In this document: piece by piece, positions 1,378 through 32,007 of the stretch
Numbering within the stretch: position 1 is the first letter of the stretch
Layout of the letters: each line of letters starts with the position of its first letter
Source: Candidatus Udaeobacter sp.
Lineage (GTDB): Bacteria; Verrucomicrobiota; Verrucomicrobiia; Chthoniobacterales; UBA10450
Reading direction: 5' to 3'
DNA: 34,475 nt
NCBI GenBank assembly: GCA_013372845.1
Contig: JAALOD010000001.1
Span: 24,109 to 58,583 of the forward strand
Made by a program: the position numbers and the translations under genes
Notes under the pieces: model-generated
Told to the model about the DNA's origin: nothing
The model's input: the letters and a program-made list of their open reading frames with translations, nothing else
Databases searched by the model: none

Positions 1378-1812
1378 GCTCCGGACATTTCCGTGCGCAA
1401 TCGTCAGCGAAAAATCCCGGTCAATGTGGCTGATCTCGAGATATTCGCAGGGAAAGCGTTGCGCCGCTGTCTGCAATTGCAGAAGCGGAAACCGACGGAC
1501 TTGGATAAATTGCATGAGGTTTTCGTGTGGCTCATTTCGGATCGACGAATGGCTTCGTTACATCGGAAATTTATGCATCAAACGGGTCCGACCGACGTGC
1601 TGACGTTTCAACACGGCGAAATCTTTATCAGCGTCGAGACCGCGAAAAAGCATGCCCGCGCATTTGGGAACTCGCTCGCCAGCGAGATTTGCCTCTACAT
1701 CGCCCATGGGCTTTTACATTTGCACGGGTTTGACGATCGAACGCAGGCTGCCACGCGCAAAATGAAAGCGATGCAGAAAAAAATTCTTCGTGATTGCAGC
1801 CGGGATCGATGA
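1372..1812 (+). CDS. ybeY: Endoribonuclease YbeY (rRNA maturation factor)
   Basis: Metal-dependent single-strand endoribonuclease that acts in 16S rRNA 3'-end maturation and 70S quality control in the cytoplasm. The family block is clear: TGPTDVLTFQHGEIFIS, then IAHGLLHLHGFDD. The usual zinc motif is H-x3-H-x5-H; the first two His are present, but the third position is Asp. An open frame extends upstream to 1324, but those codons come from a dispersed repeat, so ATG 1372 (MTAPDIS, 146 aa) is preferred; YbeY proteins are usually about 150 aa. The last four codons and the TGA stop lie inside a palindrome (1799-1819), so the natural C-terminus may have been overwritten by it. No strong Shine-Dalgarno sequence is seen. 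Confidence 0.88.
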   Translation: MTAPDISVRNRQRKIPVNVADLEIFAGKALRRCLQLQKRKPTDLDKLHEVFVWLISDRRMASLHRKFMHQTGPTDVLTFQHGEIFISVETAKKHARAFGNSLASEICLYIAHGLLHLHGFDDRTQAATRKMKAMQKKILRDCSRDR

Positions 1813-1819
1813 CCCCGGC
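1799..1819. repeat. Small palindrome with 3-base loop (ybeY end)
   Basis: GCCGGGATC, loop GAT, then GACCCCGGC, with one A-C mismatch between the arms. It supplies the stop codon of ybeY. It closely matches the elements at 4270-4290 and 15110-15130. A more decayed relative (GATCGGTCGTGCCGATTC on the minus strand) seems to lie at about 1836-1866. Confidence 0.7.
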
Positions 1820-1911
1820 AGAACTAATAATTCCAGAATCGGCACGACCGATCCCGACTACAACCCTACAGCTTGTTTGAACTGAGAGCGCCGTATGTTA
1901 GCGTTTCTGCC

Positions 1912-2283
1912 ATGAGTCGCGAGCGACGGCGGGGCGTCGGATGCCGGGCGCAGAGCAAAGATACAGAAGGAACGACTCATGTTTTGGACGAGACTGGCTC
2001 TGTAACGACTGCGGAGCCCACCAAGGAAACGCGCTCGGAAGAAGATCTCGATCTTCCCTGGCAGATCGTGGTCCACAATGATCCCGTGAATTTAATGAGC
2101 TACGTGACGATGGTTTTTCAACGGGTGTTCGGCTATCCGCGCGAGAGAGCCGAAAGACACATGCTGGAAGTGCATCAAAAGGGACGTTCGATCTTGTGGG
2201 CCGGCATGCGGGAGCCTGCCGAGCTTTATGTGCAGCAGTTACACGGCTATCTTCTGCTCGCCACTTTGGAAAAACTCAGTTGA
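1912..2283 (+). CDS. clpS: ATP-dependent Clp protease adaptor ClpS
   Basis: Adaptor that binds N-degron substrates and hands them to the ClpA/ClpC unfoldase. The core PWQIVVHNDPVNLMSYV, FQRVFGYPRERAERHMLEVHQKGRS and the C-terminal AELYVQQLHGYLLLATLEK match the ClpS fold, including the N-D pair at the substrate pocket and the H-x-K-G segment. The start is uncertain. ATG 1912 gives 123 aa. A TTG at 1984 is preceded by AGAAGGAA at 1965-1972 and would give 99 aa, closer to the family norm. A TTG at 1873 is also open. The N-terminal 30-45 residues are not conserved-looking. The stop is one base from the next start (TGATATG), so the two genes are probably translationally coupled. Confidence 0.88.
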   Translation: MSRERRRGVGCRAQSKDTEGTTHVLDETGSVTTAEPTKETRSEEDLDLPWQIVVHNDPVNLMSYVTMVFQRVFGYPRERAERHMLEVHQKGRSILWAGMREPAELYVQQLHGYLLLATLEKLS

Positions 2284-2284
2284 T

Positions 2285-2776
2285 ATGGAGATTTGCCGGC
2301 ACAACGACCAGATCGAGATCTCCGAGCTGGACCCGTTTCTTGCCGAGCTGCTTCGGCAGATTCCCGCAAGCGCCAGCCCAGACGGAGTACCAACTGCCGA
2401 GCAACGTCTCTTCAGTTCCCCAACAAATGGAGAAGAACCGGAGCTTTGCGCAGAATGGAAGCAGTACGTCGAACCTGAACTGCGGCGCCTGTTTCAGAGC
2501 GCAACCGAAACCGTGGCTGCCGATTTGGAACAACTAAATGGCAATGAAAAAAGCCTGGCGAATCGTACCCTGCATATTCCCGCCAAACACACCGACGCCT
2601 GGCTGAACGCACTCAATCAGGCGAGGCTGGTCATCGCCGCAAAAAATAACTTTACCGAACTCGAATTAAGCGACCATTTTCGCTCACCCATCGGATCGCG
2701 CCGGGACCTGAGCCTGTTCCAGATAAACTTCTACGGTTTTCTTCAGGAAGTTATCCTGCGCGAGCTGGATGGTTGA
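2285..2776 (+). CDS. DUF2017 family protein, ClpS-linked
   Basis: A 163-aa soluble protein with no signal peptide or membrane segment. DUF2017 genes are known next to clpS in Actinobacteria, and this gene begins one base after the clpS stop, so context and length support the assignment. Visible features are an acidic N-terminal part (ISELDPFLAELLRQIP), a central helical segment, and a C-terminal block FRSPIGSRRDLSLFQINFYGFLQEVILREL. Its function is not established; a role with ClpS in proteolysis is inference from the pairing. ATG 2285 was chosen over upstream in-frame codons because those overlap clpS. It converges with the anti-sigma-like gene 17 bases downstream. Confidence 0.7.
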   Translation: MEICRHNDQIEISELDPFLAELLRQIPASASPDGVPTAEQRLFSSPTNGEEPELCAEWKQYVEPELRRLFQSATETVAADLEQLNGNEKSLANRTLHIPAKHTDAWLNALNQARLVIAAKNNFTELELSDHFRSPIGSRRDLSLFQINFYGFLQEVILRELDG

Positions 2777-2793
2777 GCCACCAGGGCTCACAA

Positions 2794-3030
2794 CTACGCT
2801 TCCTTCCGCACGCGCACCATCGCCATGAGCCGGTCTTTGATTGCGCCGGAGGCTTTTGCCGGACGCAGACTCAGCGCAAATGCTTCGTGTAAACCGTAAC
2901 ATTCGCCGATGTAGTCTTCGGCCTTTTTCCCAAATTTCTTGCGTGCTTTTTCGAATTCCTCCACCTCTTCCGGCTCCAAGGCGCCAATGACGTAGAGCCG
3001 TGACTGGTTCTGGAATTCCTTAAAGTTCAC
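2794..3030 (-). CDS. Short anti-sigma-factor-like protein (sigma-binding domain only)
   Basis: A 78-aa product starting with GTG inside the last codons of the ECF sigma gene (11-base overlap), so the two are translationally coupled. The sequence FQNQSRLYVIGALEPEEVEEFEKARKKF resembles the N-terminal helical domain of RskA/ChrR-type anti-sigma factors, which sequesters the partner sigma factor: an 'x-A-L-G-x-L' type core followed by a helix rich in E and K. Classical members continue into a membrane helix and a periplasmic domain. Here the frame stops after the helical domain at 2794. It could be a cytoplasmic anti-sigma factor or a truncated one. The assignment rests on position and weak similarity. 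Confidence 0.55.
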   Translation of the reverse strand: MNFKEFQNQSRLYVIGALEPEEVEEFEKARKKFGKKAEDYIGECYGLHEAFALSLRPAKASGAIKDRLMAMVRVRKEA

Positions 3031-3697
3031 CTCTCAGCTCCTTGAGGCCGTCATAGATTTTTTTAAGTCCAAGTTCAAGCCTAGTCTTCACGGTTCCCAA
3101 GGGTGTATTCGTTTTTGCGGCGATTTCGCGCTGGCTCATACCTCGAAAAAATGCGAGGTCGATAGCCTCTTGTTGGGCTGGCGGAAGGCCGGCGATCACC
3201 TTCCGAATGAGGTCACGCGTGTCACTGAGCACGATCTCCTCTTGGGTGGCATTATGTGCCCAGGCATCAGGCTGTTGTTCAGTTTCATTTTGCAGACGCT
3301 CTTCTGCCCGCGCATAGGCCTGCTTTTTCCGCAACCCGTCAATCGCCCGTCGACGGGCCAATGTCACCATCCAGCCGAGCGGTTTGCCCTTTTGGGAAGA
3401 GAAGTTTTTCGCCTGGTTCCAAATCTCCATGAAGATCTCTTGCAAGAGATCGTCGGCCTCGGCTTCGTTGTGAATCACTCGCAAAATGAGCGCCTTCAAA
3501 ATGCCGTTGTACCGATCGTAGAGCTGAGAGAGCGCATCGGGGTCCTCCGCTTGGATCGCCTTCATTAGCTCCAAGTCACTCGGAGCTCCGGGCTCGACTT
3601 GCGGGACGACGGAGACGGCCGGCGCGCGCGATTTTGCAAGGCGGGCGCGTTTCCTTGGCTCGCGACGCGCAGGAGAAATGAGTTTGGATCGTCCCAT
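3020..3697 (-). CDS. RNA polymerase sigma-70 family, ECF sigma factor
   Basis: A 225-aa sigma factor. A basic N-terminal extension of about 40 residues precedes region 2 (ALSQLYDRYNGILKALILRVIHNEAEADDLLQEIFMEIW), the -10 binding segment (GKPLGWMVTLARRRAIDGLRKK) and region 4 with a helix-turn-helix (LPPAQQEAIDLAFFRGMSQREIAAKTNTPLGTVKTRLELGLKKI). The arrangement resembles SigK-like ECF factors (inference). The overlapping downstream gene looks like its anti-sigma factor. It is divergent from the treS fusion. Start ATG 3697 gives an unusually long basic head; an internal start is possible. Confidence 0.88.
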   Translation of the reverse strand: MGRSKLISPARREPRKRARLAKSRAPAVSVVPQVEPGAPSDLELMKAIQAEDPDALSQLYDRYNGILKALILRVIHNEAEADDLLQEIFMEIWNQAKNFSSQKGKPLGWMVTLARRRAIDGLRKKQAYARAEERLQNETEQQPDAWAHNATQEEIVLSDTRDLIRKVIAGLPPAQQEAIDLAFFRGMSQREIAAKTNTPLGTVKTRLELGLKKIYDGLKELRGEL

Positions 3698-3882
3698 CAG
3701 AGTTTAAGAACTTGCAATAAATCAATCAGCGGAGCCCGCGTGGACTCGCCATTGAGTCTCTTAAACTGCACAGACAACTTCGTCCACCGGTTTCGAACCG
3801 TGATAAAAGACGCATGATCCGCGCCGAACAATTGTTCAACCGGGGATTGCGCACTGCGTCTTGTGCGTCAAAAATTAAACGC

Positions 3883-6800
3883 ATGGCGCAAGGGGAGACT
3901 CAAACGAGCGTGGATCCGTTGTGGTACAAAGACGCAATCATCTACGAGATGCACGTCAAGACGTTTTGCGACAGCGACGGCGACGGGATGGGCGACTTCC
4001 GCGGACTGATCGAGAAACTGGATTATCTTCAGGAACTGGGGATCACTGCCATCTGGCTCCTGCCGTTTTATCCGTCACCGCTGCGGGATGACGGATACGA
4101 CATCGCCGATTACTTCGACGTCAATCCGAATTTCGGCACCCTCGATGATTTCCGCGCATTCCTTGATGCGGCGCATGCGCGAAATCTGCGCGTCATCACG
4201 GAGCTGGTCATCAATCACACTTCCGACCAAAACCCGTGGTTTCAAAAGTCCCGGCGCGCGGTAGCCGCAGCCGGGGTCGGTGACCCCGGCAGCGATCAAT
4301 CAACATCACGAGCGACAGGCGCCCGCATCTCCAGCAACGATCTCGCCTACAAAGACTTCTATGTGTGGAGTGACACCCCGGAAAAATACAAGGATTCCCG
4401 AATCATTTTTAAGGATTTCGAAACGTCGAACTGGGCATGGGACCCTGTGGCAAAAGCTTATTACTGGCATCGTTTTTATTCGCACCAGCCTGACCTGAAT
4501 TTTGATAACCCGGCGGTGCACGATGCCGTGGAAAAAGTCTGCGATTTCTGGCTCGGTCTAGGCGTAGACGGACTTCGTCTTGATGCGGTCCCGTACCTTT
4601 ACGAACGAGAAAACACCAGCTGCGAGAATCTGCCCGAAACGCATCAGTACCTCCGCAAGCTCCGCGCCCACATCGACGCGAAATTTCCAAATCGCATGCT
4701 GCTTTCGGAGGCGAACCAATGGCCGGAAGATGCAGCCGCTTACTTCGGCAACGGCGACGAATCGCATATGAATTTTCACTTTCCGCTGATGCCCCGCATG
4801 TTCATGGCGCTGCAGATGGAGGACCGCTTTCCCATCATCGATATCCTGGATCAGACTCCGTCGATTCCCGAGCAGTGTCAGTGGGCGATGTTTCTGCGCA
4901 ACCACGACGAGTTAACCCTGGAAATGGTCACGGACGAGGAGCGCGACTACATGTACCGAGTTTACGCTACCGATCCGCACGCTCGCATTAATCTTGGGAT
5001 TCGCCGGCGCCTTGCGCCATTGCTCGTAAACAGCCGACGCAAAATCGAGTTGCTCAACATACTCCTGTTCTCAATGCCTGGCACTCCGATCATTTATTAC
5101 GGAGACGAGATCGGCATGGGTGACAATTTTTATCTCGGCGATCGCAACGGTTGCCGAACCCCAATGCAGTGGAGCCCCGACCGCAACGCCGGATTTTCCA
5201 GAGCAAATCCGCAGCAGCTTTATCTGCCGATTACGATCGACCCGGAGTATCACTACGAAGCCATCAACGTGGAAAATCAGCAGAAAAATCTCTCCTCCCT
5301 ACTCTGGTGGACACGCCGAGTCATCGCCATGCGGAAAAATTTCAAGGCGTTTTCGCGGGGCTCGCTTGAATTTCTTTATCCAGACAATCCCAAGGTTCTC
5401 GCCTTTCTTCGCCGTTACGAGGACGAAATCATTCTGGTGGTAGTGAATCTCTCGCGCTTTGCCCAATCGGTGGAACTGGACCTTTCACGCTTCTCTGGCT
5501 ACGTGCCGATGGAAGTGTTTAGCCGCAATCTGTTTCGGCCAGTTAGAAAATCCCGTTACGTCATTACGCTCGGTCCACACGCGCATTATTGGTTCGCCCT
5601 GCACGCGCCGACCGACGGACGCCGTGCGCCAAGAAAGAGAGCTGTGCCAGTAATCAATGCGCCGATGGAGCTAGAGACGCTGCTGGCCAATAGCCAACGC
5701 GCTGCCATCGAAGGCGAAATTTTGCCCAGGTACCTTCAGACCTGTCGCTGGTTCGGTTCAAAGGCGCGGACTTTTCGCAATCTGAGAGTCGTTGAGCGGG
5801 CTTCGATCTCGGAGGATGCCGATGGCGCCCAACTTTGGTTTGTCGAAGTCAGTTATTTGGATGGACCAACGGAAACTTATGCGCTCCCGGTCAAGATCGC
5901 TTCTGGAGACTCTGCGCGCTCAATTTCTCAAGCCGCACCACACGCGATTATTGCCCGTTTTGAAGGCACTGAAGAAAATATTCTGTTTGATGCCATCTGG
6001 GATCCGAAGTGTCGCTCACAATTCCTTACAGCGATCGTTCGTGGCGAGAAAATGAAAGCGCGAGCCGGCGAACTTGTCGGCACAGTTGCCAAAACGATCG
6101 AACCAGATCAGCCGGTCAGCTTCGAGAATTCAGAGGTATTGGGTGCAGAGCAGAGCAACTCTTCGATGCTCTTTGATAACAAATTTTTCCTTAAGCTTTA
6201 TCGCAAGCTCGAGGACGGCATCAATCCAGATGTTGAAATAACTCGATTTCTCACAGAGCACACCAAGTTTCCAAATGTGCCGGCGTTCGTCGGCGCGATC
6301 GAATACCGCCAGCCAAAAGCGGAACCGACTGTTGTTTGTCTGCTGCAGCGCGCCGTTGCCAGCGAAGGCGATGTCTGGATGCTCGCTTTAGACGCAGTCG
6401 GCCGCTATTACGAGCGTGTACTGGGCCGCAAAGCGGATCTTCAGAATGAAACGGCGGCACCCGGCGCGTTGCTCGATGAGCTGATCGGCGGCGTTCATCC
6501 TGAGAAAACAAATTTGCTAGGACAACGCACCGGTGAGTTACATCTCGCGCTCGCCTCGAATTCCGATGATCCGGCGTTCCGACCGGAGCCATTCAATGCG
6601 ATGGCCCAACGCTCCGTTTACCAAAACATGCGGGCGTCGCTGCGGCGTACGTTTACTCTTTTGGAAAAGAAAATATGCGACCTTTCGGCAGCTTTCCGCG
6701 ACGAAGCCAAGGAAGTGCTCGACGCCGAACAAGAGATACTGGCGCGCGAAAAACGGCTGCTCGATCGTCGCACCAATGCCGCCAAAATCCGGATTCATGG

Positions 6801-7435: not shown

Positions 7436-8107
7436 ATGAAACAATATCTCGAAGAAATCGACAATGACATTGCGGAGAAACATCTGTTGAAACATCCGTT
7501 TTATCTCGCGTGGACGCGTGGCGAATTGAGCAAAGAAGCGCTCACGGATTACGCGCAACAGTACTATCATCATGTCGCAGCGTTTCCGACGTATCTATCG
7601 GCGGTGCATGCGCACTGCGATCATCAGGCCACGCGGAAACAATTGCTCAACAACTTGATCGATGAAGAAGCTGGCTCGCCGAATCATCCCGAGCTTTGGA
7701 AGAAATTTGCGGATAGTCTGGGCGTCGAAGACGCCGACCTGGCGCAAACCGACAAGCAACCGGAGACGAAAAACTTGATCAACACATTCCGTTCGGTTTG
7801 TGGGCAGCGATCGACTGCGGAAGGTCTCGCGGCACTTTACGCGCATGAGAGTCAAATTCCGTCGATCTGTGAATCTAAAATCGATGGACTGAAGAAGCAT
7901 TATGGATTCACCAAGCCCGAGCATTATGAATATTTTACTGTCCATATCGAAGCGGACCGCGAGCATTCCGCCGCCGAGCGTCAAATGCTGAGCCGTCACC
8001 TGGATGCCCAGAATTTCGAATCAGTGAAAGTCTCTGTGAACCGCGTTCTCGACGCGCTTTGGGATATGCTCTCAGGCGTTTGCCGCCGTCACGCCATCGC
8101 GTATTGA
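7436..8107 (+). CDS. CADD-like diiron protein (TenA/PqqC fold), putative pABA synthase
   Basis: A 223-aa heme-oxygenase-like helical protein of the CADD family, related to TenA and PqqC. The chlamydial member provides p-aminobenzoate for folate by sacrificing its own residues. From memory of chlamydial CADD (Y27, E81, H88, E142, K152, H174, D178, H181), the same residues appear here with a constant offset of four: Y23, E77, H84, E138, K148, H170, D174, H177. They sit in HPFYLAW, DEEAGSPNHPELW, YAHESQIPS, ESKIDG and YFTVHIEADREHS. Metal ligands and the proposed self-cleaved Tyr and modified Lys are therefore all kept. No folate gene is adjacent. Whether pabA/B/C are missing elsewhere cannot be seen from this window. 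Confidence 0.82.
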   Translation: MKQYLEEIDNDIAEKHLLKHPFYLAWTRGELSKEALTDYAQQYYHHVAAFPTYLSAVHAHCDHQATRKQLLNNLIDEEAGSPNHPELWKKFADSLGVEDADLAQTDKQPETKNLINTFRSVCGQRSTAEGLAALYAHESQIPSICESKIDGLKKHYGFTKPEHYEYFTVHIEADREHSAAERQMLSRHLDAQNFESVKVSVNRVLDALWDMLSGVCRRHAIAY

Positions 8108-8120: not shown

Positions 8121-8139
8121 CGGTGCTTGACACAAGCCG
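8121..8139. repeat. Small palindrome with 3-base loop, convergent spacer
   Basis: On the minus strand it reads TGTAG, then CGG-CTTG, loop TGT, CAAG, two bases, CCG. It sits between the convergent stops of the CADD-like gene (8107) and the protease gene (8148) and belongs to the family listed at 4270-4290. Confidence 0.6.
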
Positions 8140-8147
8140 CTACAACT

Positions 8148-9689: not shown

Positions 9690-11791
9690 TAACTAACGTT
9701 GGAAAAGGTTCGTCCCTGTTGTTCGACAATTAAACGCCGGAAACGTTGATTCTCAGGCAATTCCAAACGCGCATCCCTTTCCAAAATCGACACCGCGGCT
9801 GCGCGCGCGCGCAGCATCAAGTGCGCATCGGTCCTTAAGTTACCGACTTTAAGCGCAGGCAGCCCGCTCTGGGCCGTGCCAAGCAGATCGCCCGGCCCGC
9901 GCAATTCCCAGTCTGCTTCTGCCACTTTGAAGCCGTCACTTGTCCTTTCTAAAACGGCAAGTTTTTCCGAAGCCTCTTTCGCCTGGGCCGAGGTAAGCAA
10001 AATGCAATACGACTTGTGCTCTCCGCGGCCGATTCGTCCCCGAAGCTGATGCAGCTGCGCGAGGCCAAAACGCTCTGCGTTTTCAATGAGCATCACCGTC
10101 GCGTTGGGAACATCTACACCGACCTCAAGCACGGTGGTGCTGATCAACGCGTTCGTGTCGCCGCGGCGAAAACGTTCCATGATCTCTTGTTTCTCCGGCG
10201 CCGGAATTCGACCGTGAAGCAGATCGCAGCGGAACGGACGCAAACGTTCCCGCCACAAATCGTACTCGGCCGCGGCGGCTTTGGCATCGAGCTTTTCACT
10301 TTCATCGATCAACGGATAAATCACATAAACCTGGCGACCGGCCTCCAACTGTGTTCGCAAAAAGGCAAGTACCTCGCCGAGCTTCGACCCATCGCGCACA
10401 GCCGTAACGATTTTCCCACGGTTCCGAGGCATCTCATCAATCGTCGAGACATTCAGGTCGCCATAAATAGTCATCGTTAACGTCCGCGGGATCGGGGTAG
10501 CCGTCATCACCAGTACATCGGGCGCCGGTTCGCGCGCGCTCAATTGGGCGCGTTGCGTAACTCCGAATTTATGCTGCTCATCAATCACAACGAGTCCGAG
10601 GTTTGAAAATGAAACTTTGTCATACAGCAACGCATGAGTGCCGATAACAATTTGTGGTTGGTTCGTTGTCGTGAGCCTTTCGTCTGGGGATTTCTGCACG
10701 CGCTCAAACAATGGCAATGGCCCACTTTCCTCTTGCCGAGCGGCGGTTCGCAGCGCCATGCGTACGCCGAGCGGCTCCAGCCAGCGACGCAAGACATCAT
10801 AATGTTGCTCCGCCAGAATTTGCGTAGGCGCCATGAACGCGGCCTGATAGCCGCTCTCGACGGCAAGTAGCATTGCTGCGATGGCGACAACGGTTTTTCC
10901 CGAGCCCACATCGCCCTGCAACAAACGATTCATTGGATGATTCGCTGCCAGGTCGTGGCGGATTTCACCGATCACTTTGGATTGCGCAGCAGTTAGCTCA
11001 AAGGGTAACGACCTGAGAAACCTATCGAGCAGCGCGCCGGCCCCGCAGTGCTTCTCACCTCGCCGGGTTGAGGCATCAGCGCGTCGCGATGCAATGAGCA
11101 TTTGCATCACGAAGAACTCAGTGAGCACTAGATGTTCCCGCGCGGCGTCACGCGCTTCCCAGCTGTCCGGGAAATGGATCGCGCGAATCGCTTCGGGTCT
11201 CTCCCCACGAACAAGATTGCTTGGTGCCAATGTTTCCAATCCGGCAGAGGACCATGGAAGTTCGTTCAACAGTCTGTAAATCATGCTGCGCAAGACGCGC
11301 TGTGAAAGGCCTTCTGTTGCGGGGTAGATCGGCGTGATTCTGCGAAAATGGATCGAGATTTCTTCGTCATTCTCAATCACCTCGAACTCCGGATGGTCCA
11401 TGCAAATTCGCGTTCCGCGCAGCCGCGGCTTCCCAAAGACTACCATGCGTTGACCGGTGGCGATCATCTTCTGCACGTAATGCAGATTGAACCATCGGCA
11501 CACAAGCGGCTCGCTCAGAGCGTTTGGGTCCGATTCTTGCAACGTGGCTTCGAAAATTTTCTTCCAACCGCCGAAGCGCCGCAGCGACGTCTTGACCACC
11601 TCCCCGCAAAGACAAATCGGAACATCACTCTCTTCGCGCGGAAACTTCGGAAATTCCGTCCGGTCTTCATGGCGCCGCGGAAAATGCGTAAGTAAATCTT
11701 CGACCGTTTCCACGCCGAGACGTCGCAACGCGAGAAGTTTTGGGCGTGCGATCCAATTCAATCCCTCAAGTTTTTCTGAAACGTCGATCAT
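9689..11791 (-). CDS. recG: ATP-dependent DNA helicase RecG
   Basis: A 700-aa branch-migration helicase that remodels stalled forks and recombination intermediates. The N-terminal wedge/OB part (LLTHFPRRHEDRTEF, ICLCGEVVKTSL) is followed by SF2 motifs: Walker A GDVGSGKTVVA, DEQH box VVIDEQHKFGV, TATPIPRTL, and the motif VI region HQLRGRIGRG. The C-terminal segment ADWELRGPGDLLGTAQSG is diagnostic for RecG. Length is normal. It is followed directly by the HtrA-like protease gene and lies downstream of recJ on the same strand, separated by a dispersed repeat (11810-11902). Confidence 0.95.
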   Translation of the reverse strand: MIDVSEKLEGLNWIARPKLLALRRLGVETVEDLLTHFPRRHEDRTEFPKFPREESDVPICLCGEVVKTSLRRFGGWKKIFEATLQESDPNALSEPLVCRWFNLHYVQKMIATGQRMVVFGKPRLRGTRICMDHPEFEVIENDEEISIHFRRITPIYPATEGLSQRVLRSMIYRLLNELPWSSAGLETLAPSNLVRGERPEAIRAIHFPDSWEARDAAREHLVLTEFFVMQMLIASRRADASTRRGEKHCGAGALLDRFLRSLPFELTAAQSKVIGEIRHDLAANHPMNRLLQGDVGSGKTVVAIAAMLLAVESGYQAAFMAPTQILAEQHYDVLRRWLEPLGVRMALRTAARQEESGPLPLFERVQKSPDERLTTTNQPQIVIGTHALLYDKVSFSNLGLVVIDEQHKFGVTQRAQLSAREPAPDVLVMTATPIPRTLTMTIYGDLNVSTIDEMPRNRGKIVTAVRDGSKLGEVLAFLRTQLEAGRQVYVIYPLIDESEKLDAKAAAAEYDLWRERLRPFRCDLLHGRIPAPEKQEIMERFRRGDTNALISTTVLEVGVDVPNATVMLIENAERFGLAQLHQLRGRIGRGEHKSYCILLTSAQAKEASEKLAVLERTSDGFKVAEADWELRGPGDLLGTAQSGLPALKVGNLRTDAHLMLRARAAAVSILERDARLELPENQRFRRLIVEQQGRTFSNVS

Positions 11792-11939: not shown

Positions 11940-13760
11940 TCAAGATTGCTCCGCATTTCGCACCGCCTCGATCTGCATGGCGACCAGGGTCTCGCCTTCA
12001 TATTCGTCCGCGCGAATCCGAAATGCGATGTCCCACGGTGTTGGCGGCAATTGGTTTGGCACGCCGTCAAAATATACCGCGCGGCGATGGCAATTGCCCT
12101 GACGCAGACGAAAGATGAGATGCTTATCGTTCACTACCCGAGGCGGGGCCACGGGCGCGACCTCCCGCGCGAGGAAACGCGGCTGGGGATTTCCATTTCC
12201 AAATGGCTGCAACATTTCGTGCCACCGCAGAAAACCTAGATCGATCTCCGTGAACGCCAGCTCATGGTCCAGTCGCACGCAAGGTTGAAGAGCGTCTTCG
12301 GCAAGAAGTTCACGCGCAGCTTTGCGAAATCCTTCAGCAAAAACATCGAAATTTTCTTCGTGCAGCGCAAGACCCGCCGCCATTTCGTGCCCGCCGAATT
12401 TGTCGAGCCTCTCTGCGCAGCAGCTCAAAGCTTCCACCAGATTCAAGCCTTCAATGCTTCGTCCGCTTCCTTTACCGATTCCGTTCTCGTCGAAGCCGAT
12501 CACGATGGTTGGTCGATGATACCGTCGAGCGATCCGCGATGCTACAATGCCAAGTACCCCCGGATGCCAGCCGGGCGCTCCAACGACGATGGCCGCGTCG
12601 CGCGCCACGTCGAGCCGATCCTCTATCTTTTTTATCGCCGCATCGAAAATTTGCTTTTCCACTTCCTGGCGCTCGCGATTCTGCTGGTCGAGCTCGGCTG
12701 CGAGCATTGTTGCCTCGCCGTCATCGTGAGTAAGCAACAGGCGCAAAGATTTTTCAGCCGTGCTCAAACGCCCTGCAGCGTTCAATCGCGGGCCAAGCCG
12801 GTAACCTATGTCCTCAGGCAAAATTGGCGGCCGCACCCCGGCAACCTGCATTAATTTTCTCAGCCCGATACGTGAGGCCTGAGCGATCTCGATCCCGCCG
12901 CGCTGCACCAGAATGCGATTTTCGCCACAAAGCGGTACGATGTCCGCCACTGTGCCGAGCGCCACAAGGTCGAGCTTTGATTTCAAATTGAACTCAGGCA
13001 GTGGCCGTGTTTTCAGCAATGCGTGGCAAAGCTTGAAGACAATGCCCACACTGCAGAGATATTCGAAGACGGAGTCGCTTGTTTTCGGATTTACGATCGC
13101 AACGCAGTCAGGCAATGCAGACTTCGGCTCATGATGATCGAGCACGATCACGTCCACTCCGCGCTTGCGCAGGTCAGCGATCTCTTTTAGCGATGAGGTC
13201 CCGCAATCGATAGCAATCAGCAGTTGGGGTTGATGTTGTCCGAGACAACGTTCGACGCTTTCGGGACTCAAGCCGTAGCCCTCCTCCATGCGGAGCGGTA
13301 AAAACAATTCCGGAGCACCACCGTATGCGCGCAACGTTTCCGCAAGCAATGCCAGCGATGTCACACCATCCACATCGTAATCGCCAAAGAGCACGATGCG
13401 TTCCCGTCGATCTAAGGCCGCGAGAAGCCGAGAAACAGCCGCATGCATTTGGGGCAGTAAAAATGGATCGCTCAGCGAGCTTAGGCGTGGCTGCAGAAAC
13501 GCGTTCACCTCTTCGGCGTCACGAAACCCCTTTCGTAAAAGTAACCGCGCGATGCACTCCGAACCGCAAATTTCGCTCCACGAAATTCCCGACGCGTCGG
13601 CATTCAGCTCTTCAGGCTGCGCAATGATCCATCGGCTTTGCGGCCGGGTAAATTTTCCAAGTGCCTGCTCACCGGCGAAATTGCCCTCAACGCGGCTTTG
13701 CCGCGTAAAGCCCCCCTGCACCTTCGGATCCGTTGAGTCACCTTCTACGCGGCTTTGCAC
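11940..13760 (-). CDS. recJ: Single-stranded-DNA-specific exonuclease RecJ
   Basis: A 5'-3' ssDNA exonuclease used in recombination and mismatch repair. DHH-family motifs are clear: VLFGDYDVDGVTSLALLAE, AIDCGTSS, VIVLDHHEPKSALPDC, and the DHHA1 part with GKGSGRSIEG and FGGHEMAAGLAL. A C-terminal OB-like segment follows. The annotated start is GTG 13760 (606 aa, slightly long). The first 40 residues are two copies of a 19-20 residue repeat (QSRVEG...FTR) that runs into a third QSR just before the conserved-looking RWIIAQPEEL. An internal GTG in the first repeat could be used instead. A possible promoter (TTGTCA, 16 bases, TAAACT) lies within 35 bases upstream. Confidence 0.92.
   Translation of the reverse strand: MQSRVEGDSTDPKVQGGFTRQSRVEGNFAGEQALGKFTRPQSRWIIAQPEELNADASGISWSEICGSECIARLLLRKGFRDAEEVNAFLQPRLSSLSDPFLLPQMHAAVSRLLAALDRRERIVLFGDYDVDGVTSLALLAETLRAYGGAPELFLPLRMEEGYGLSPESVERCLGQHQPQLLIAIDCGTSSLKEIADLRKRGVDVIVLDHHEPKSALPDCVAIVNPKTSDSVFEYLCSVGIVFKLCHALLKTRPLPEFNLKSKLDLVALGTVADIVPLCGENRILVQRGGIEIAQASRIGLRKLMQVAGVRPPILPEDIGYRLGPRLNAAGRLSTAEKSLRLLLTHDDGEATMLAAELDQQNRERQEVEKQIFDAAIKKIEDRLDVARDAAIVVGAPGWHPGVLGIVASRIARRYHRPTIVIGFDENGIGKGSGRSIEGLNLVEALSCCAERLDKFGGHEMAAGLALHEENFDVFAEGFRKAARELLAEDALQPCVRLDHELAFTEIDLGFLRWHEMLQPFGNGNPQPRFLAREVAPVAPPRVVNDKHLIFRLRQGNCHRRAVYFDGVPNQLPPTPWDIAFRIRADEYEGETLVAMQIEAVRNAEQS
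13638..13757 (-). repeat. 60-base tandem repeat encoding the RecJ N-terminal extension
   Basis: Units start with CAAAGCCG at 13757, 13700 and 13640 (minus strand). They encode QSRVEGDSTDPKVQGGFTR, then QSRVEGNFAGEQALGKFTRP, then the start of a third QSR. The junction at 13690-13706 is a perfect palindrome with 7-bp arms (ACGCGGC) and a 3-base loop. Confidence 0.75.
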
Positions 13761-14947: not shown

Positions 14948-15763
14948 CTAAACAACACGCAACGCGAGGTCGCGCTCTGGGAGCAGACTGTGTTTTATGC
15001 ACAAATTTGCGAAAACTCGCAGACCTTCTTTTTCTTTTTTGCCAAAGCTGAATCGAAGATGTTCACGGTAATAGCGCGAAAGGAATTCCCAATTGACTTC
15101 CTTCCGTCGGCCGGGGTCATCGGCCCCGGCTAAAGCGTCTGCGATTAGATCATCGAGAGTGGCAAGGTTTCCATCTCGGAGATTGCGGAGACGGTTTGCG
15201 ATTTGTTTTGGATCGCCGACTTCGGGGCGAATAAGCCAGAGAGCGTAAACAAACGGAAGTCCGACGGGTTTCTGCCACTGTTCCCCGAGGTCCCAGAAAG
15301 AAAATTCGTTCGCGTACTGTTGTCGGAAACGGATGGCTTGATCGCCGATGAGCAGTCGCGCGCGACGGCCTGTTTTTATTTCCACCGCGCCAGGCCATGC
15401 GCCCGTGCTGCGCCGAATTAGGCGCGAAGGCAATCCGAACTCCGCGATTAAACAATACAAAAGATTAGCAGAAGTTTCTGATGCAGGATCGAGTTCGATC
15501 TCTTCGATCTGGCCAATTTCGCCGCGGTGCGCGACAACGACACTGTAAACCGGTCCGTCCGAGGAAATGGAAACGTCATCAACGATCTGGTAAATAGGGT
15601 TACGCAGAAATTCGAAGCTGGAGACGAGCGCAACATCGAGTTCGCCGGCCGCAAGTTTATTGCAGAGCGCCGATGGATGATCGAAGTCCACGTTGCCTTC
15701 CCAGCCGTGGATGAGCGGGCAGGCGTTGAGATACTTTACGCAACCGATGCGGAGGGAGTTCAA
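14948..15763 (-). CDS. mqnA: Chorismate dehydratase MqnA (futalosine menaquinone pathway)
   Basis: Converts chorismate to 3-enolpyruvoyl-benzoate, the first step of futalosine-type menaquinone synthesis. The N-terminus LRIGCVKYLNACPLIHG, the block LAAGELDVALVSSFEF and SSDGPVYSVVV match the periplasmic-binding-protein-like fold of MqnA/MqnD. GRRARLLIGDQAIRF and GLPFVYALW fit MqnA better than MqnD. The start is TTG 15763; an in-frame stop lies shortly upstream and no ATG is near. A palindromic repeat (15110-15130) is read in frame as LAGADDPG between the two C-terminal helices, so the protein carries a short insertion there. MqnE is encoded 100 bases upstream on the same strand. Confidence 0.9.
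   Translation of the reverse strand: MNSLRIGCVKYLNACPLIHGWEGNVDFDHPSALCNKLAAGELDVALVSSFEFLRNPIYQIVDDVSISSDGPVYSVVVAHRGEIGQIEEIELDPASETSANLLYCLIAEFGLPSRLIRRSTGAWPGAVEIKTGRRARLLIGDQAIRFRQQYANEFSFWDLGEQWQKPVGLPFVYALWLIRPEVGDPKQIANRLRNLRDGNLATLDDLIADALAGADDPGRRKEVNWEFLSRYYREHLRFSFGKKEKEGLRVFANLCIKHSLLPERDLALRVV
15110..15130. repeat. Small palindrome with 3-base loop, in frame inside mqnA
   Basis: GCCGGGGTC, loop ATC, GGCCCCGGC (one T-G wobble). It is almost identical to the treS copy at 4270-4290, and also lies inside a coding frame. Confidence 0.8.
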
Positions 15764-18390: not shown

Positions 18391-18723
18391 GTGCCGAAAA
18401 AAAAGAAAACTGTCCAAGATAAAAGTGAGACGTCGCCGGAAACGGGCGGGTCCTTCAAAGTAAAAACCGGCAAAAGCACTCGCGCGCGCGGTGCGACTGC
18501 GAGTCGAAAACCAAGCAAGACCGCGGCCGGTAAAAGCACAACCGCAGCAAAAGCTTCAATGCCACTCCAGGCGGCGGGAATCCCGGAGCCACCGGACGAA
18601 GCGGTTCGTCTCCGAGCCTACTTTATCTCCGAGCGTCGGCGCCGATTTGCCTTGCCGGGTGATTCTGAGTCCGATTGGCTGGAAGCGAAACGACAACTGC
18701 TCTCGGAGATCGGTCGTCGCTAA
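18391..18723 (+). CDS. DUF2934 domain protein with Lys/Ala-rich head
   Basis: A 110-aa protein starting at GTG 18391. Residues 1-60 are low-complexity and basic (Lys, Thr, Ser, Ala). The C-terminal 45 residues, RLRAYFISERRRRFALPGDSESDWLEAKRQLLSEI, match the DUF2934 domain, whose function is unknown. The basic head might bind nucleic acid (inference). It is followed by a small helical gene 37 bases downstream, probably in the same transcript. Confidence 0.75.
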   Translation: MPKKKKTVQDKSETSPETGGSFKVKTGKSTRARGATASRKPSKTAAGKSTTAAKASMPLQAAGIPEPPDEAVRLRAYFISERRRRFALPGDSESDWLEAKRQLLSEIGRR

Positions 18724-18760
18724 GGTCAAAACGAATGACCGCGAATCGCCGTTTAATAAA

Positions 18761-18991
18761 ATGGAAAACGCGCTCGTCGATTTAGCGCAGGCTCTACGAG
18801 AACGCCTTGCGGCGATTCGCGACGAGCAAAGCCGCGACGATGAAGCAAAGCACATCGCGCGATTGCGCAGCGTCTCGGAGAAAATCGACAGGTTACAGGC
18901 AGCGCTTCCGCAGCCCGTCGATCCACGATTGGCGCATTATCTCCAGCGAAGGAGTTACGACAAAGCCCTTGAGTTCTTGGAATCGCTGTAG
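18761..18991 (+). CDS. Small helical hypothetical protein
   Basis: A 76-aa product starting at ATG 18761, all helix-forming: ALVDLAQALRERLAAIRDEQSRDDEAKHIARLRSVSEKIDRLQAALP, likely a coiled coil or helical hairpin, then PRLAHYLQRRSYDKALEFLESL. No family was recognised. The stop TAG is the TAG of the TGTAG flank of the next palindromic repeat, so the repeat may have set the present C-terminus. It is co-directional with the DUF2934 gene. Confidence 0.55.
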   Translation: MENALVDLAQALRERLAAIRDEQSRDDEAKHIARLRSVSEKIDRLQAALPQPVDPRLAHYLQRRSYDKALEFLESL

Positions 18992-19010
18992 CGGCGGTCT
19001 ATGACCGCCG
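18992..19010. repeat. Small palindrome with 3-base loop
   Basis: Perfect 8-bp arms (CGGCGGTC) around the loop TAT, preceded by CTGTAG. It is the first of three such palindromes within 140 bases. Confidence 0.8.
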
Positions 19011-19030: not shown

Positions 19031-19073
19031 AGCGAAGGGGCTACGTTCAGCCTTTAATTGGGACGCTGTAGTG

Positions 19074-19090
19074 GCAGGCGTGTCGCCTGC
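19074..19090. repeat. Small palindrome with 3-base loop
   Basis: Perfect 7-bp arms (GCAGGCG) around TGT, preceded by CTGTAGTG. Its flank and arm match the copy inside the coiled-coil gene at 31808-31824. Confidence 0.75.
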
Positions 19091-19103: not shown

Positions 19104-19424
19104 CTAGTTGTAGCCGGCGTCGCTGATGCCGCTGCTCAATGAAAATTTGGGTGGAGAATCAACAGGAGAAGAAAAAAACAGCCCGAGCAGAGCCACGGGA
19201 ATCGCCACTCCCAGGAGAAGAACAATCGCAACAACCTGCTGCCCGATCGAACGCAACCAAACGCTGCCTCCTACGACAGCTGGCAAAGCGGCCAGGATCG
19301 CCAGCCAGGGCAAAATGTTGACTGATCCCACCCTGCCACCAGCAGCCAGGGAAAAAAAGAAATAGAGCGCAACCGCCGCAATAACAGCATCGATAGCCCA
19401 GAGGAACCAGAACCAAAACTTCAC
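19104..19424 (-). CDS. Hypothetical membrane protein
   Basis: About 106 aa from GTG 19424, which has AGG a few bases upstream; a TTG at 19502 would give 132 aa. Three hydrophobic segments are visible: KFWFWFLWAIDAVIAAVALYFFF, ILPWLAILAALPAVVGGSVW and VVAIVLLLGVAIPVALLGLFF. No family was recognised. The last nine residues (SGISDAGYN) are encoded by a palindromic repeat (19116-19130), so the C-terminus is repeat-derived. Confidence 0.55.
   Translation of the reverse strand: MKFWFWFLWAIDAVIAAVALYFFFSLAAGGRVGSVNILPWLAILAALPAVVGGSVWLRSIGQQVVAIVLLLGVAIPVALLGLFFSSPVDSPPKFSLSSGISDAGYN
19116..19130. repeat. Small palindrome with 3-base loop, end of membrane-protein gene
   Basis: GGCGTC, loop GCT, GATGCC (one wobble), preceded by GTTGTAGCC. 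It encodes the tail of the gene at 19104-19424. Confidence 0.65.
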
Positions 19425-26525: not shown

Positions 26526-26527
26526 AA

Positions 26528-27067: not shown

Positions 27068-27072
27068 GAGTT

Positions 27073-27092: not shown

Positions 27093-27097
27093 CATGG

Positions 27098-27496: not shown

Positions 27497-27501
27497 GAAA
27501 A

Positions 27502-28074: not shown

Positions 28075-28085
28075 TTTCAACACAC

Positions 28086-28182: not shown

Positions 28183-28197
28183 TTTCCTTAGTTTCGA

Positions 28198-28497
28198 TCA
28201 TGCCGCTTTCTTCTCTGCTTCCTTTTTCGATTTCTTTGTCGCCTTTTTCTCAGTCTTCTTCTCGCGCTCGATTAATTTCACGTTGGAAATATGAATGGGG
28301 CCCTCGCGTTCGGCGATTTTCCCGCCCGGGTTATCCTGGGATTTTCGCAGGTGCTTTTTGATGATCCGTACGCCTTCAACGACGACACGCTGTTTTGCGG
28401 GAAACACCGCCAGGATTCGCCCTGAAGAACCGCGGAAATTCCCGGAGATGACCTCGACTTGGTCGCCTTTTTTAACGTGAAACTTGACGCGGTTCAT
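28198..28497 (-). CDS. rplX: 50S ribosomal protein L24
   Basis: Initiates 50S assembly. It is 99 aa: [48 protein letters not shown] (KOW domain), then [19 protein letters not shown] and a Lys/Ala/Glu tail. The ATG overlaps the rplN stop (ATGA). Confidence 0.95.
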
Positions 28498-28859
28498 AAG
28501 ACTTCCGGGGCAAGCGAGACAATTTTCATGAAATTCCGCTCACGCAATTCACGTGCGACCGGTCCGAAAATGCGCGTGCCGCGGGGATTCAAATCTTTAT
28601 CGATAATCACGATGGCATTGTTATCGAAACGCAGCAGCGACCCATCCTCGCGCCGGATCGGTTGCCTGGTCCGGACGAGCACTGCGCGTACCACTTCGCC
28701 CTTCTTCACTGTGCCGTTCGCGCTTGCTTCCTTGACGTTTGCAGTAATCACGTCGCCGATTCCTGCGTAACGCGTGGCTTTGCCAATGACACCAATCATC
28801 GTGGCCATGCGCGCGCCGCTATTGTCCGCCACATCCAATCTGGATCGAAGTTGTACCAT
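28494..28859 (-). CDS. rplN: 50S ribosomal protein L14
   Basis: A 121-aa protein at the subunit interface. ATG 28859 ([18 protein letters not shown]) is the canonical start; the frame is open further upstream, but that part overlaps the end of rpsQ. VIVIDKD-type core [42 protein letters not shown] is typical. It is complete. Confidence 0.96.
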
Positions 28860-28870
28860 AAAATCGATAG

Positions 28871-29158
28871 TTACTTTTGGATGACTTCCACAAGGCGCCA
28901 CCGTTTTAGCTTGCTTAGCGGCCGCGTCTCCATGATGCGCACCCTGTCACCAGTTTTTGCCTGGTTCTGTTCATCGTGCGCATAGAATTTTTTCATCTGT
29001 TTGACAATCTTGCCGAATTTCGGGTGCGGCACACGCGTCACCGTGCGCACCACAATTGTTTTATTCATGCCGCTGGAAACCACTTCGCCGGTGCGCATCT
29101 TACGCGGGCCGCGCGTGATAGACGCGGGAGCAGATTGCGGTTCGTGTTCGTCAGCCAT
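28871..29158 (-). CDS. rpsQ: 30S ribosomal protein S17
   Basis: A 95-aa primary 16S rRNA-binding protein with an OB fold: [44 protein letters not shown], then [24 protein letters not shown]. The first 19 residues are an extension relative to E. coli S17. Confidence 0.95.
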
Positions 29159-29160
29159 AG

Positions 29161-29364
29161 TTACTTCGTTTCAGTTTGTTTCTCGCGCTGCGACAGCTCT
29201 GTTTCGATCCGCGCAATGTCCCGTCGCAGGAAGCGCAACCTGCTTGGCTGTTCCAACTGGCCACTCTGCTGCTGCAGCCGGAGGTGAAGCCTTTCCTGGC
29301 GAAAGTCCCGCCTTTTAGTCAGCAACTCGTCAGTGCTCAGCTCGGTGATTTCCTTCATTTTCAT
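29161..29364 (-). CDS. rpmC: 50S ribosomal protein L29
   Basis: A 67-aa helical-hairpin protein near the peptide exit tunnel: [59 protein letters not shown]. It is complete. The second Met is an equally good start. Confidence 0.94.
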
Positions 29365-29369
29365 GACGC

Positions 29370-29795
29370 TTAAGCGGCCCTCACATGGTGCCGTGTGAGA
29401 AACTTCGTGCGCACCGGCAACTTGTCCGCCGCCAGCCGCAAGGACTCCCTCGCCACCGATTCCGGCACGCCGTCCAACTCAAACAAAATGTTGCCAGGCC
29501 GCACCGTGGCGACCCAAAACTCGGGCTGGCCTTTTCCCTTGCCCATGCGCGTTTCCGGTGGACGCGAAGTTACCGATTTGTCCGGGAAAATACGGATCCA
29601 AAGCTTGCCCTTGCGCTTCATGTTACGAGTGAGCGCAACACGCGCGGCTTCCAATTGCGTGTTCGTGATCCAGGCGCGCTCGAGTGTTTGCAACCCGAAT
29701 TCGCCAAAATCGATCTTTAGATTGCGCGAAGCGGTTCCCTTGCGGCTTCCCCGCTGGGACTTTCGATACTTCACGCGTTTTGGCATCAACGGCAT
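29370..29795 (-). CDS. rplP: 50S ribosomal protein L16
   Basis: A 141-aa protein near the A-site tRNA elbow: [106 protein letters not shown]. It is complete and canonical. Confidence 0.96.
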
Positions 29796-29806
29796 AAAAT
29801 TTCTCC

Positions 29807-30499
29807 TTAGACTTCAGCCGGCTCTGGTGCCGGAGCTGGCGGCGGTGGCGGTGGGGAAGCGGGCTGAACGGGGGGCTCCTCCTTCTTACACATCCAACAT
29901 TTGACTCCGATTTTTCCGTAAACGGTATTGGCTTCGGCAAATCCGTAATCGACCGCTGTTCGCAGCGTGTGCAGAGGAACTTTGCCTTCCCGATACCATT
30001 CCGAGCGCGAAATCTCCGCGCCATTAAGCCGGCCTGAACAACGGAGCCGAATTCCTTCGGCGCCAAAATCCATCGCCGTCTGCACGGCTTTCTTCATTGC
30101 GCGGCGATAAGCAATCCGCCGCTCGATCTGTAGCGCCACATTCTCCGCCACCAATTGCGCATCGAGCTCCGGTGTCTTGATCTCCTGGATGTCGATCTTG
30201 ACTTGCTTGCCCTGCGCCATCTTGGAAATCTCTTCTGTCATTTTCTCGATCTCGGCGCCTTTGCGTCCGATCACGATTCCCGGGCGCGCCGTAAAAATGG
30301 TTACCCGGATACTGTTCCACGCCCGCTCGATCACAATTTTCGAGACAGCTGCATACTGCAGCTTTTTCTTCACGTAATTACGAATCTCTAAATCGGAGTG
30401 CAAAAATTCTGGCAGCTCCTGAGGCGAGGCATACCAGCGTGAGCGCCAATCGCGGTTCACGCCCAGGCGAAAGCCAATCGGATTAACTTTTTGTCCCAT
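29807..30499 (-). CDS. rpsC: 30S ribosomal protein S3
   Basis: A mRNA-entry-channel protein of 230 aa. [24 protein letters not shown], the KH segment [22 protein letters not shown] and [69 protein letters not shown] are canonical. At the usual VKVWIFKGE position it has VKCWMCKKE, creating a C-x2-C pair. A Pro-rich tail of about 20 residues ([19 protein letters not shown]) follows. Confidence 0.96.
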
Positions 30500-30516
30500 A
30501 AGTCAGTATAACAAAT

Positions 30517-30999
30517 TTACTTCTTCGATTTCTTGGGCGCTTTTTTCGCTTTCGGCTTTTTACCTTCAGTTGCCGGTCCTTCCGCGCCCGTCGTGCCACC
30601 AGCCTTCTTCGCCGCTTTTTCTTCGGCCTTGCGTTTCGCTTTCCTGGTCTCGCGTGTCTCGACTTTAATTTCGTCAGTAAGCACGATTCGAATATGACTG
30701 GTCCGTTTCAAAATCCGACTCGCGCTGCCCCGCGCACGCGCCATGATCCGCTTAAACGTTGGACCTTCGCCTACGACCGCTTCTTTCACGACCAATCCGT
30801 CAGGCTTGAGGTTGGCGTTGTTCTCGGCATTAGCGATCGCGCTCTTCAACGTCTTGTTAATGAGGAACGCCGCTTTCTTGGGCGTGAAAGCGAGGAGATC
30901 GAGTGCTGCCGAGACCGGTAGACCCTGGATCTCACGCGTGACTTCGCGCGCCTTAAACGGCGAAATCCGCGCATACTTGTATATCGATCTGACTTCCAT
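30517..30999 (-). CDS. rplV: 50S ribosomal protein L22 with basic tail
   Basis: Lines the peptide exit tunnel. The core YARISPFKAREVTREIQGLPVSAALDLLAFTPKKAAFLINKTLKSAIANAENN...VGEGPTFKRIMARARGSASRILKRTSHIRIVL is complete. The last 45 residues are Lys/Ala/Glu-rich, extending it to 160 aa against about 110 in E. coli. Upstream lies not rpsS but a coiled-coil gene. Confidence 0.95.
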   Translation of the reverse strand: MEVRSIYKYARISPFKAREVTREIQGLPVSAALDLLAFTPKKAAFLINKTLKSAIANAENNANLKPDGLVVKEAVVGEGPTFKRIMARARGSASRILKRTSHIRIVLTDEIKVETRETRKAKRKAEEKAAKKAGGTTGAEGPATEGKKPKAKKAPKKSKK

Positions 31000-31007
31000 C
31001 GTTTCGT

Positions 31008-31080
31008 TCCGTAATTCGAGAATCGAAATTCGTAACTCGGTTTCCCGTTCTCACGTTCTCGGTTCCGGTTCTCGATTCTT
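31008..31080. other. Low-complexity wordy spacer before rplV
   Basis: Built from GTAATTCGAGAATCGAAATTCG and GTTCTCGGTTCCGGTTCTCG words. No ribosome-binding site is obvious. It separates the coiled-coil gene from rplV. Confidence 0.5.
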
Positions 31081-31086
31081 GTCTTC

Positions 31087-32007
31087 TTATTTCAAACTCA
31101 CATTCGGTTGCGCATCCACCTGGAGGCGGTCCCCTACTTTTATTCTGTCCTTCCTTGAATCCATTTCCTGAATCACAGCGCCGCAAATTCTTTGTCGCAC
31201 ATCAATCACCCGCAGGGTCGCGATCCTTTTGTCGCCGCGCATCACCCGCATTGGCATCCCAATTTTGACGCCTTGTTTTTCGCCAAGGTTACCCACTACG
31301 AAGGACCATTCATCCTTCACGCTGATCACGCTCCCGTCCATCAAACTCGGCTCCGGCAAATCCGGCGCATTCGTGGACTTCGTGACCAGCTTGTCGACGC
31401 TGCGCAGCTGAGTTTCCACGTCCATCCGCGCTTTCGCATCCGCGCTCTGCGACGTTTTCAAGTAACACAACACCGCCTCGTCCAGCCGCAGCATCTGGTC
31501 GCGATATTCGTCGCGCTCCTTCTGCGCGAGCTGAAGATCACTCACCGCCGCCAGTAAACGCTGCTCCAGCTTCGCCCGGTCCTTGTTCGCCGACGCCAGC
31601 CCTAGTGCCTCCATTTGCAATTGCAGATCGGAATACTTGCGCCGAAACAATTCCGCCTCCGCATTGGACTCCGCCAGGCTGCTGGTCAACGCTTTCAGCG
31701 ATTCCTGAGCAATTGATAATTGCCTCTGCAAATCCTCGTTTTGCTGAAGCAAACCCGTCGCAGTCACCTCTGAAGGCAGCCGTGTTGGTCGCGAATTCGC
31801 CGACGCAGCAGGCAAGCCGCCTGCCACTGCGGTGTCATTCGCTCCCGCGTTTTCAGTTTTGGATTCTGACAAAGAACTATTTCCCTCTGCCGCCAGCCCC
31901 TGGGCCAGCGCAACACAACCCACTACGATAAGAGTCGTTAGTTGATGGTTGATCGTCGATGGTTTCACCTTGGCAAAACGCAGCGGCTCATCTCTATCAA
32001 CTCGCAA
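31087..32007 (-). CDS. Secreted or anchored coiled-coil protein embedded in the S10 operon
   Basis: Up to 306 aa from TTG 32007. A hydrophobic signal-like segment (LTTLIVVGCVALAQGLAAEG) ends near residue 42. A Ser/Ala-rich linker contains a palindromic repeat (31808-31824, read as VAGGLPAAS). Residues 85-175 form a long coiled coil (LLQQNEDLQRQLSIAQESLKALTSSLAESNAEAE...). The last 85 residues look like a compact beta domain (GSVISVKDEWSFVVGNLGEKQGVKIGMPMRVMRGDKRIATLRVIDVRQRICGAVIQEM...IKVGDRLQV). No named family was recognised. The start is uncertain because the 5' region is low-complexity. It lies between rpsS and rplV on the same strand, 30 bases after rpsS. Confidence 0.7.
   Translation of the reverse strand: MRVDRDEPLRFAKVKPSTINHQLTTLIVVGCVALAQGLAAEGNSSLSESKTENAGANDTAVAGGLPAASANSRPTRLPSEVTATGLLQQNEDLQRQLSIAQESLKALTSSLAESNAEAELFRRKYSDLQLQMEALGLASANKDRAKLEQRLLAAVSDLQLAQKERDEYRDQMLRLDEAVLCYLKTSQSADAKARMDVETQLRSVDKLVTKSTNAPDLPEPSLMDGSVISVKDEWSFVVGNLGEKQGVKIGMPMRVMRGDKRIATLRVIDVRQRICGAVIQEMDSRKDRIKVGDRLQVDAQPNVSLK
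31808..31824. repeat. Small palindrome, in frame inside the coiled-coil gene
   Basis: GCAGGC and GCCTGC arms around 5 bases. On the minus strand it reads CAGTGGCAGGC, matching the TAGTGGCAGGC start of the element at 19074-19090. Confidence 0.55.

Follow-up and report, generated by a model that had tools for sequence, protein, structure and literature searches.

The window analysed here, a stretch of 34,475 nucleotides from Candidatus Udaeobacter sp. (assembly GCA_013372845.1, contig JAALOD010000001.1, positions 24,109 to 58,583), carries among others the genes ybeY, treS, recG, recJ and mqnA and part of a ribosomal protein cluster, together with short palindromes that are found at gene ends and, in some cases, inside the reading frames. 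Nine of them had been taken in the initial annotation as elements of a single design and family. When these sites were read letter by letter, a palindrome-like sequence was present at all nine, and at seven of them it is a repetitive extragenic palindrome (REP), or a decayed one, made of a GTAG-like head followed by a short palindrome (Table 1). The head is exact at 8121 (minus strand), 18992, 19074 and 19116 (four of the nine sites) and one letter off at four others, 1799, 4270 and 31808 (all GCAG) and 15110 (TTAG). The hairpin at 13690 was dropped as a REP, having no GTAG head, and 31808 is kept only as a possible member. Instead of one family there are several: sites 1799, 4270 and 15110 belong to a CCGGGRTC family, 8121 resembles the family found at the transposase locus L015 and 19074 resembles that of the locus L016. 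Probably these palindromes are GTAG-tagged REPs spread by REP-associated tyrosine transposases (RAYTs), one lineage of which persists in frame inside host proteins.

A strict count within the window (3-base loop, arms of at least 7) gave 10 hairpins vs. 3.7 expected in shuffles, and only four of the noted sites (4270, 13690, 18992 and 19074) are among them; an excess this modest was too weak as a test of the family. To assess how common such hairpins are, we used a 260 kb sample of the same genome (a draft of 3.22 Mb, 83% complete) that comprised the window, 16 further stretches and four stretches picked for their transposases. A good hairpin followed GTAG 34.2 times per 1000 occurrences of this tetramer, compared with 2.0–7.9 for nine control tetramers. 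After removal of the window and of the transposase stretches, 16 of 687 GTAG in the remaining 206,570 bases were followed by a hairpin, i.e., 23.3 per 1000 vs. 0.8–6.9 for the controls. An exact 15-mer search of the genome gave no match. The degenerate pattern GTAGCCGGGGTCNNNGACCCCGG, which represents the CCGGGGTC family and was allowed up to 3 mismatches, gave 38 + 40 matches vs. 0 + 0 for the reversed control pattern; these 78 rows correspond to 62 distinct palindromes, and a palindrome may score on both strands in such counts. A lack of genome-wide excess, which would have spoken against the initial annotation, is therefore not what these 78 matches against none in the control indicate. The same pattern was present in 35 of 35 genomes of the genus (1451 rows vs. 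13 for the reversed pattern, as table sums). Inverted pairs of GTAG hairpins are common (they appear in the loci L013–L017, L023 and L032), and within the CCGGGGTC family seven adjacent pairs lie less than 120 bp apart, counted by distance whatever their orientation.

RAYTs are single-strand HUH transposases; related members of this group enter and leave DNA without duplicating the target. The search for a RAYT/Y1 transposase that had been proposed along with the palindromes was successful both in the window's genome and in its relatives. The genome itself contained four Y1_Tnp matches and five matches to the RAYT profile, four of which were inspected. Three of the corresponding open reading frames (ORFs; L013, L015 and L016) pass the NCBIfam cut-off for REP_Tyr_transpos, and the fourth (L014, on contig 99) is a partial match to the RAYT model below the cut-off. 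The three former are bordered on either side by GTAG hairpins, with stems such as ACSGGCC, CGGTGCTTG and GGCAGGCG; L014 has a GTAG hairpin pair (TCCGCC) ca. 0.7 kb to one side. In the relatives, CCGGG-type REPs adjoin RAYTs at 9 of the 30 RAYT loci examined, L095 having variant stems. The 15 best-scoring RAYTs of the profile search over the genus are encoded in frames of 144–252 amino acids. The palindromes thus have the attributes of GTAG-tagged REPs: the head on a short palindrome (stem mostly 6–9 bp), high copy number, inverted pairs and a cognate RAYT flanked by them.

Four of the palindromes had been described as lying in frame within genes, and for treS and mqnA this was borne out by their orthologues. 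Of the 30 TreS loci of the genus, 26 could be parsed; 21 of them have 22–42 residues between two anchor motifs and the other five 13–15. The presence of the same segment in distant lineages would have argued against an insertion, and in other lineages all 59 parsed loci (out of 80, 21 being unparsed) have 13 or 15 residues at this site. The segment has no counterpart either in the solved TreS structure PDB 5x7u, to which query residues 125–150 did not align. For MqnA the segment, mostly AVAGVxDPG-like, is present in 16 of 27 parsed loci, absent in ten and truncated in one (three more loci were unparsed). A second variable site of MqnA holds other repeat-like peptides, e.g., STGILPVGPAGVSPA, in L128, L129, L138, L139, L140 and L151. 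The remaining two in-frame copies fared less well, that of recJ being headless and near an uncertain N-terminus, and that of the coiled-coil ORF being in frame but only a possible member.

Two gene ends had also been attributed to palindromes. This holds for ybeY, whose last codons and stop derive from the REP; at 18992 the TAG of the head is the stop of an ORF (18491–18991) for which no Pfam hit was found. At the stop of ybeY a CCGGG-type GTAG REP is also found in L267, L271, L273 and L278 (26 of 30 loci parsed), and L270, L276 and L289 carry a REP with another stem at the same spot. It is as if families with unrelated stems were replacing each other in place across species. To see where REPs lie over the whole genome, 30 of the 78 rows were examined, which correspond to 28 distinct, best-matching palindromes. 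Twelve of these 28 were embedded in a Pfam domain or separated two domains of the same ORF, including DnaE, ThiC, MiaA, TreS and MqnA, and the other 16 were intergenic, near protein ends or in ORFs lacking domain support. At the sequence level, the TreS and MqnA orthologues confirm in-frame REP segments where other lineages or loci have none, in agreement with the original idea of a mobile type of palindrome that generates peptide segments; the REPs may move, and what is observed is their presence or absence between orthologues. These small inserts are a new case of a known kind, because intragenic GTAG REPs have been reported before, with the highest number in Opitutus terrae, a verrucomicrobium (PMC3733652).

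The search for RAYTs over the genus also returned matches located within very long open frames. One of them, L116, is a RecG with a RAYT in the middle of the gene, in a single frame of 982 amino acids. The linker concerned exists in four states in the genus: short, with a REP-sized insert, with a RAYT of type A or with a RAYT of type B. In a tree of RecG that included 29 of 30 rows, 13 were free, two had only a REP, ten had type A and four type B. The states require 12 changes on the tree built from the RecG flanks, compared with a mean of 13.5 for shuffled labels (35 of 200 shuffles were as low); being this near to the shuffled level, they suggest that gain, loss or exchange at the RecG linker is frequent. 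The A and B RAYTs are separate clades in the same linker, and B groups with RAYTs from MetH and AlaRS (the RAYT tree had 19 rows, 17 of them different and one place entered twice; 10 of 29 loci gave no core). The median dN/dS was 0.089 for the type A RAYTs (five of nine rows, 10 pairs) vs. 0.081 for the RecG flanks, and 0.061 for type B (four rows, six pairs) vs. 0.071, values that indicate purifying selection.

Long frames are the rule among the close matches. In the genus, 26 of 31 matches with E ≤2.1e-50 fall in frames of at least 569 amino acids and five in frames of 220–271. Over the class (286 genomes), every one of the 28 matches with E ≤1.3e-38 is in a frame of 730–1513 amino acids; they come from 24 genomes and 14 families. 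Among the 24 class loci fetched, ten hosts were named by profile (RecG 3, ThrRS 3, AlaRS 3 and MetH 1), twelve more were named by eye (RecG 4 and AlaRS 8) and two gave no ORF. One AlaRS ORF and one MetH ORF contain two RAYT copies each. The REP_Tyr_transpos profile was found in all 17 embedded ORFs scanned, part of them above the cut-off. We have looked at the number of AlaRS genes in 14 genomes picked for a RAYT-bearing AlaRS or for its contig. A single AlaRS locus was found in each, and in 13 of them it is in the frame that holds the RAYT; in the other one (G107) AlaRS and RAYT are on different contigs. Two of the 14 are less than 90% complete, and G284 is a single contig with one AlaRS and the RAYT in frame. 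AlaRS is an essential enzyme; presumably, therefore, the interrupted gene is functional and its RAYT is translated.

The ends of the cassette are recognisable as GG[T/G]AGC plus a hairpin on the left and a hairpin plus GCT[A/C]CC on the right. Among the 24 cores with both ends, 22 join the frame in phase 0 at their left end. Wherever both ends were recognised, the frame includes both REPs (13 of 13 embedded and 3 of 3 standalone copies); in each of four standalone copies (L364, L367, L370 and L374) a single frame spans the two REPs and extends beyond them on either side. Thus the embedded lineage does not have the arrangement of a RAYT as a gene of its own between two REPs, which is that of the ordinary RAYTs L013, L015 and L016, with both REPs outside the frame. 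Of the 34 copies whose left end was recognised, 32 have no ATG before the core (in 12 more cores no left end was recognised). The HUH motif is kept in 49 of 49 cores and the Tyr motif in 47, the cores having been picked by an MP[D/N/G]H pattern that favours intact ones.

These data can be accommodated as follows. A RAYT (a Y1/HUH single-strand transposase) would spread the GTAG-tagged REPs. Each REP family has few stop-free frames (GTAGCCGGGGTC... would be read as VAGVxDPG forward and as AGVxDPGY or PGSxTPAT in reverse), and because of this the insertions that survive would be those in tolerant linkers and in such frames. An element open in one frame would land in a linker and be translated with its host. 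In one RAYT lineage an open frame would have come to pass through the two cassette ends, in most cases with no ATG before the core, and the cassette would be translated as an inner segment of the host protein. In an indispensable gene imprecise loss would be selected against and the insert tolerated, a persistence that would resemble that of inteins, minus the protein splicing. We give about even chances to the full proposal, namely that across the class this RAYT lineage lives almost only as a translated internal domain, including that of the sole AlaRS, mostly without its own ATG or stop and unspliced, with an intein-like persistence of which the small REPs would be the short form. This estimate was slightly lowered because roughly half of the copies do have GTG or TTG codons before the core. 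From comparisons of sequence we infer transposition, excision, transposase activity, expression and an intact host function.

Several observations weigh against this proposal. None of the four RAYTs inspected in the window's genome has CCGGGRTC flanks, and therefore the main family of the window has no known mobiliser in its 83%-complete assembly. Of the 46 cores, only 24 had two recognisable ends, and the length is a multiple of 3 in 15 of these 24. In the ordinary RAYT L114 (a 251-amino-acid frame), too, both REPs fall within the stop-to-stop frame, and in L093, L097, L100 and L105 one REP does. Only 15 of 34 copies have no ATG, GTG or TTG ahead of the core, and internal initiation is possible for the rest. 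The W motif was detected in 40 of 49 cores by the pattern used. Behind the dN/dS values dS is high, saturated in four of ten A pairs and two of six B pairs, and only five of the nine A rows were readable. The weaker class matches (E ≥6e-23), among the matches listed, are in frames both long and short. Most genomes are drafts, and the rows of L349 and G107 are cut by contig ends. In two drafts, G023 and G028, interrupted and free RecG are both present, perhaps due to mixed strains. We had considered a precise excision for the RecG pair L336/L122 and found it unsupported: the linker letters beside the element differ too, with flanks of 94–100% identity per 100 nucleotides.

The embedded RAYT might alternatively be a domesticated domain, a DNA-handling module kept by RecG and other hosts for its function. 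In its favour, the RAYT core is under selection as strong as that on RecG, and the RecG site is used again in other genera and families. However, the hosts (RecG, MetH, AlaRS and ThrRS) are unrelated in function, the insertion state shifts repeatedly along the RecG tree with two RAYT clades at one site, REP-type ends are kept wherever they are recognised, and single AlaRS and MetH ORFs hold two copies. We regard domestication as rather unlikely. Much less probable is that the long frames are artefacts of assembly or pseudogenes, i.e., gene-breaking RAYT insertions that happen to be open: the abundance of drafts and the rows cut by contig ends would fit, but the 28 close class matches from 14 families are all open, the single-contig G284 has its only AlaRS with the RAYT in frame, dN/dS is low for RAYT and RecG alike, and the catalytic motifs are mostly kept.

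For the palindromes themselves, the likeness to the Rickettsia palindromic elements (RPEs) suggested in the initial annotation is real in one respect, since RPEs are also in-frame palindromic inserts in conserved genes. They are nevertheless tagged by CGTC and have no transposase association, according to PMC3733652, and the present elements carry a GTAG tag and are accompanied by RAYTs, making an RPE-type element very improbable. That they are ordinary transcription terminators or chance hairpins is hardly credible: 1799, 8121 and 18992 do lie at gene ends and the excess within the window is small, but GTAG is enriched over the control tetramers, control patterns give near-zero counts, REPs occur inside domains of conserved proteins and RAYTs lie beside the same families.

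The elements that we interpret as RAYT-spread REPs belong with the REPtrons, in which GTAG-tagged REPs are associated with RAYTs (PMC2817692; Di Nocera 2013, PMC3733652). As far as the accessible text of these studies goes, the resemblance includes the GTAG head, the short palindrome, the inverted pairs, several families per genome, the RAYT between inverted REPs, the intragenic REPs and a stop codon supplied by the TAG of the head. The difference is that the RAYTs are there described as separate genes, whereas here the complete RAYT cassette forms part of the reading frame of a host gene. Insertions of REPs that keep the frame of tnpA-REP genes are also described (PMC6006769), similar to the present ones in being in-frame REPs in coding regions, although the host in those cases is the transposase itself. 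A few unexpectedly long proteins were set aside in that work as fusions or annotation errors, so that cases like those described here may have been overlooked. In a literature search covering part of the literature, we found no earlier report of RAYTs in frame inside host genes.

Inteins are in-frame inserts in essential conserved genes, with a patchy distribution and recurrent sites. The embedded cassettes share all these traits, but no intein model was among the hits listed and nothing suggests splicing: no intein (Hint) domain was among the Pfam hits of L116 (E ≤0.01), and no intein model among the NCBIfam hits listed for the 17 embedded ORFs (E cut-offs 1e-5 and 1e-15; the best 25 families for two of them). 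If the interpretation is right, essential enzymes can harbour a transposase as a lasting passenger, which bears on the survival of mobile DNA, the gain of inserted protein domains and the persistence of RAYTs. The latter, it has been argued, are no longer able to mobilise their own genes (PMC2817692). The coexistence of free and filled RecG linkers in close relatives makes the proposal testable.

Table 1. Palindromes and related features of the window (positions are those of the window).
Feature	Position	Strand	Remarks
Decayed GTAG REP, CCGGGRTC family	1796..1818	+	Gives last codons and TGA stop of ybeY
In-frame treS insert	4258..4335	+	Palindrome of the CCGGGGTC family at 4267-4289; compared with orthologues and PDB 5x7u
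Diverged GTAG REP, resembles CGGTGCTTG family	8121..8145	-	Between convergent genes; CGGTGCTTG family flanks the RAYT in L015
RecG linker, residues 363-378	10658..10705	-	Without RAYT in the window; in relatives, REP-sized inserts or whole in-frame RAYT cassette
Perfect 7-bp hairpin without GTAG head	13690..13706		Near N-terminus of recJ ORF; excluded as REP
In-frame mqnA REP, CCGGGGTC family, head TTAG	15111..15133	-	Peptide LAGADDPG
GTAG REP, stem CGGCGGTC	18988..19010	+	TAG of head is the stop of ORF 18491-18991
GTAG REP, stem GCAGGCG	19068..19090	+	Resembles family around RAYT of L016
GTAG REP, imperfect stem CGGCGTC	19110..19131	+	
Possible decayed REP	31808..31830	-	Head GCAG, 6-bp arms, 5-base loop; in frame, coiled-coil ORF

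The convergent ORFs around the palindrome at 8121 end at 8107 and 8148. The start of the recJ ORF contains a repeated peptide (QSRVEGD, QSRVEGN; window 13690–13760), and its true start is uncertain. The coiled-coil ORF (31087–32007) has no Pfam hit and separates the S3 gene from the L2 gene inside the ribosomal protein cluster. A second type of RAYT, with the motif MPNHVH, was also seen in frame within long genes. Its hosts, named by NCBIfam, are the large subunit of carbamoyl-phosphate synthase (L314), TsaC/Sua5 (L326), a RarA-like AAA ATPase (L327) and ValRS (L328), and L313 and L315–L324 are further candidate loci of similar frame length.

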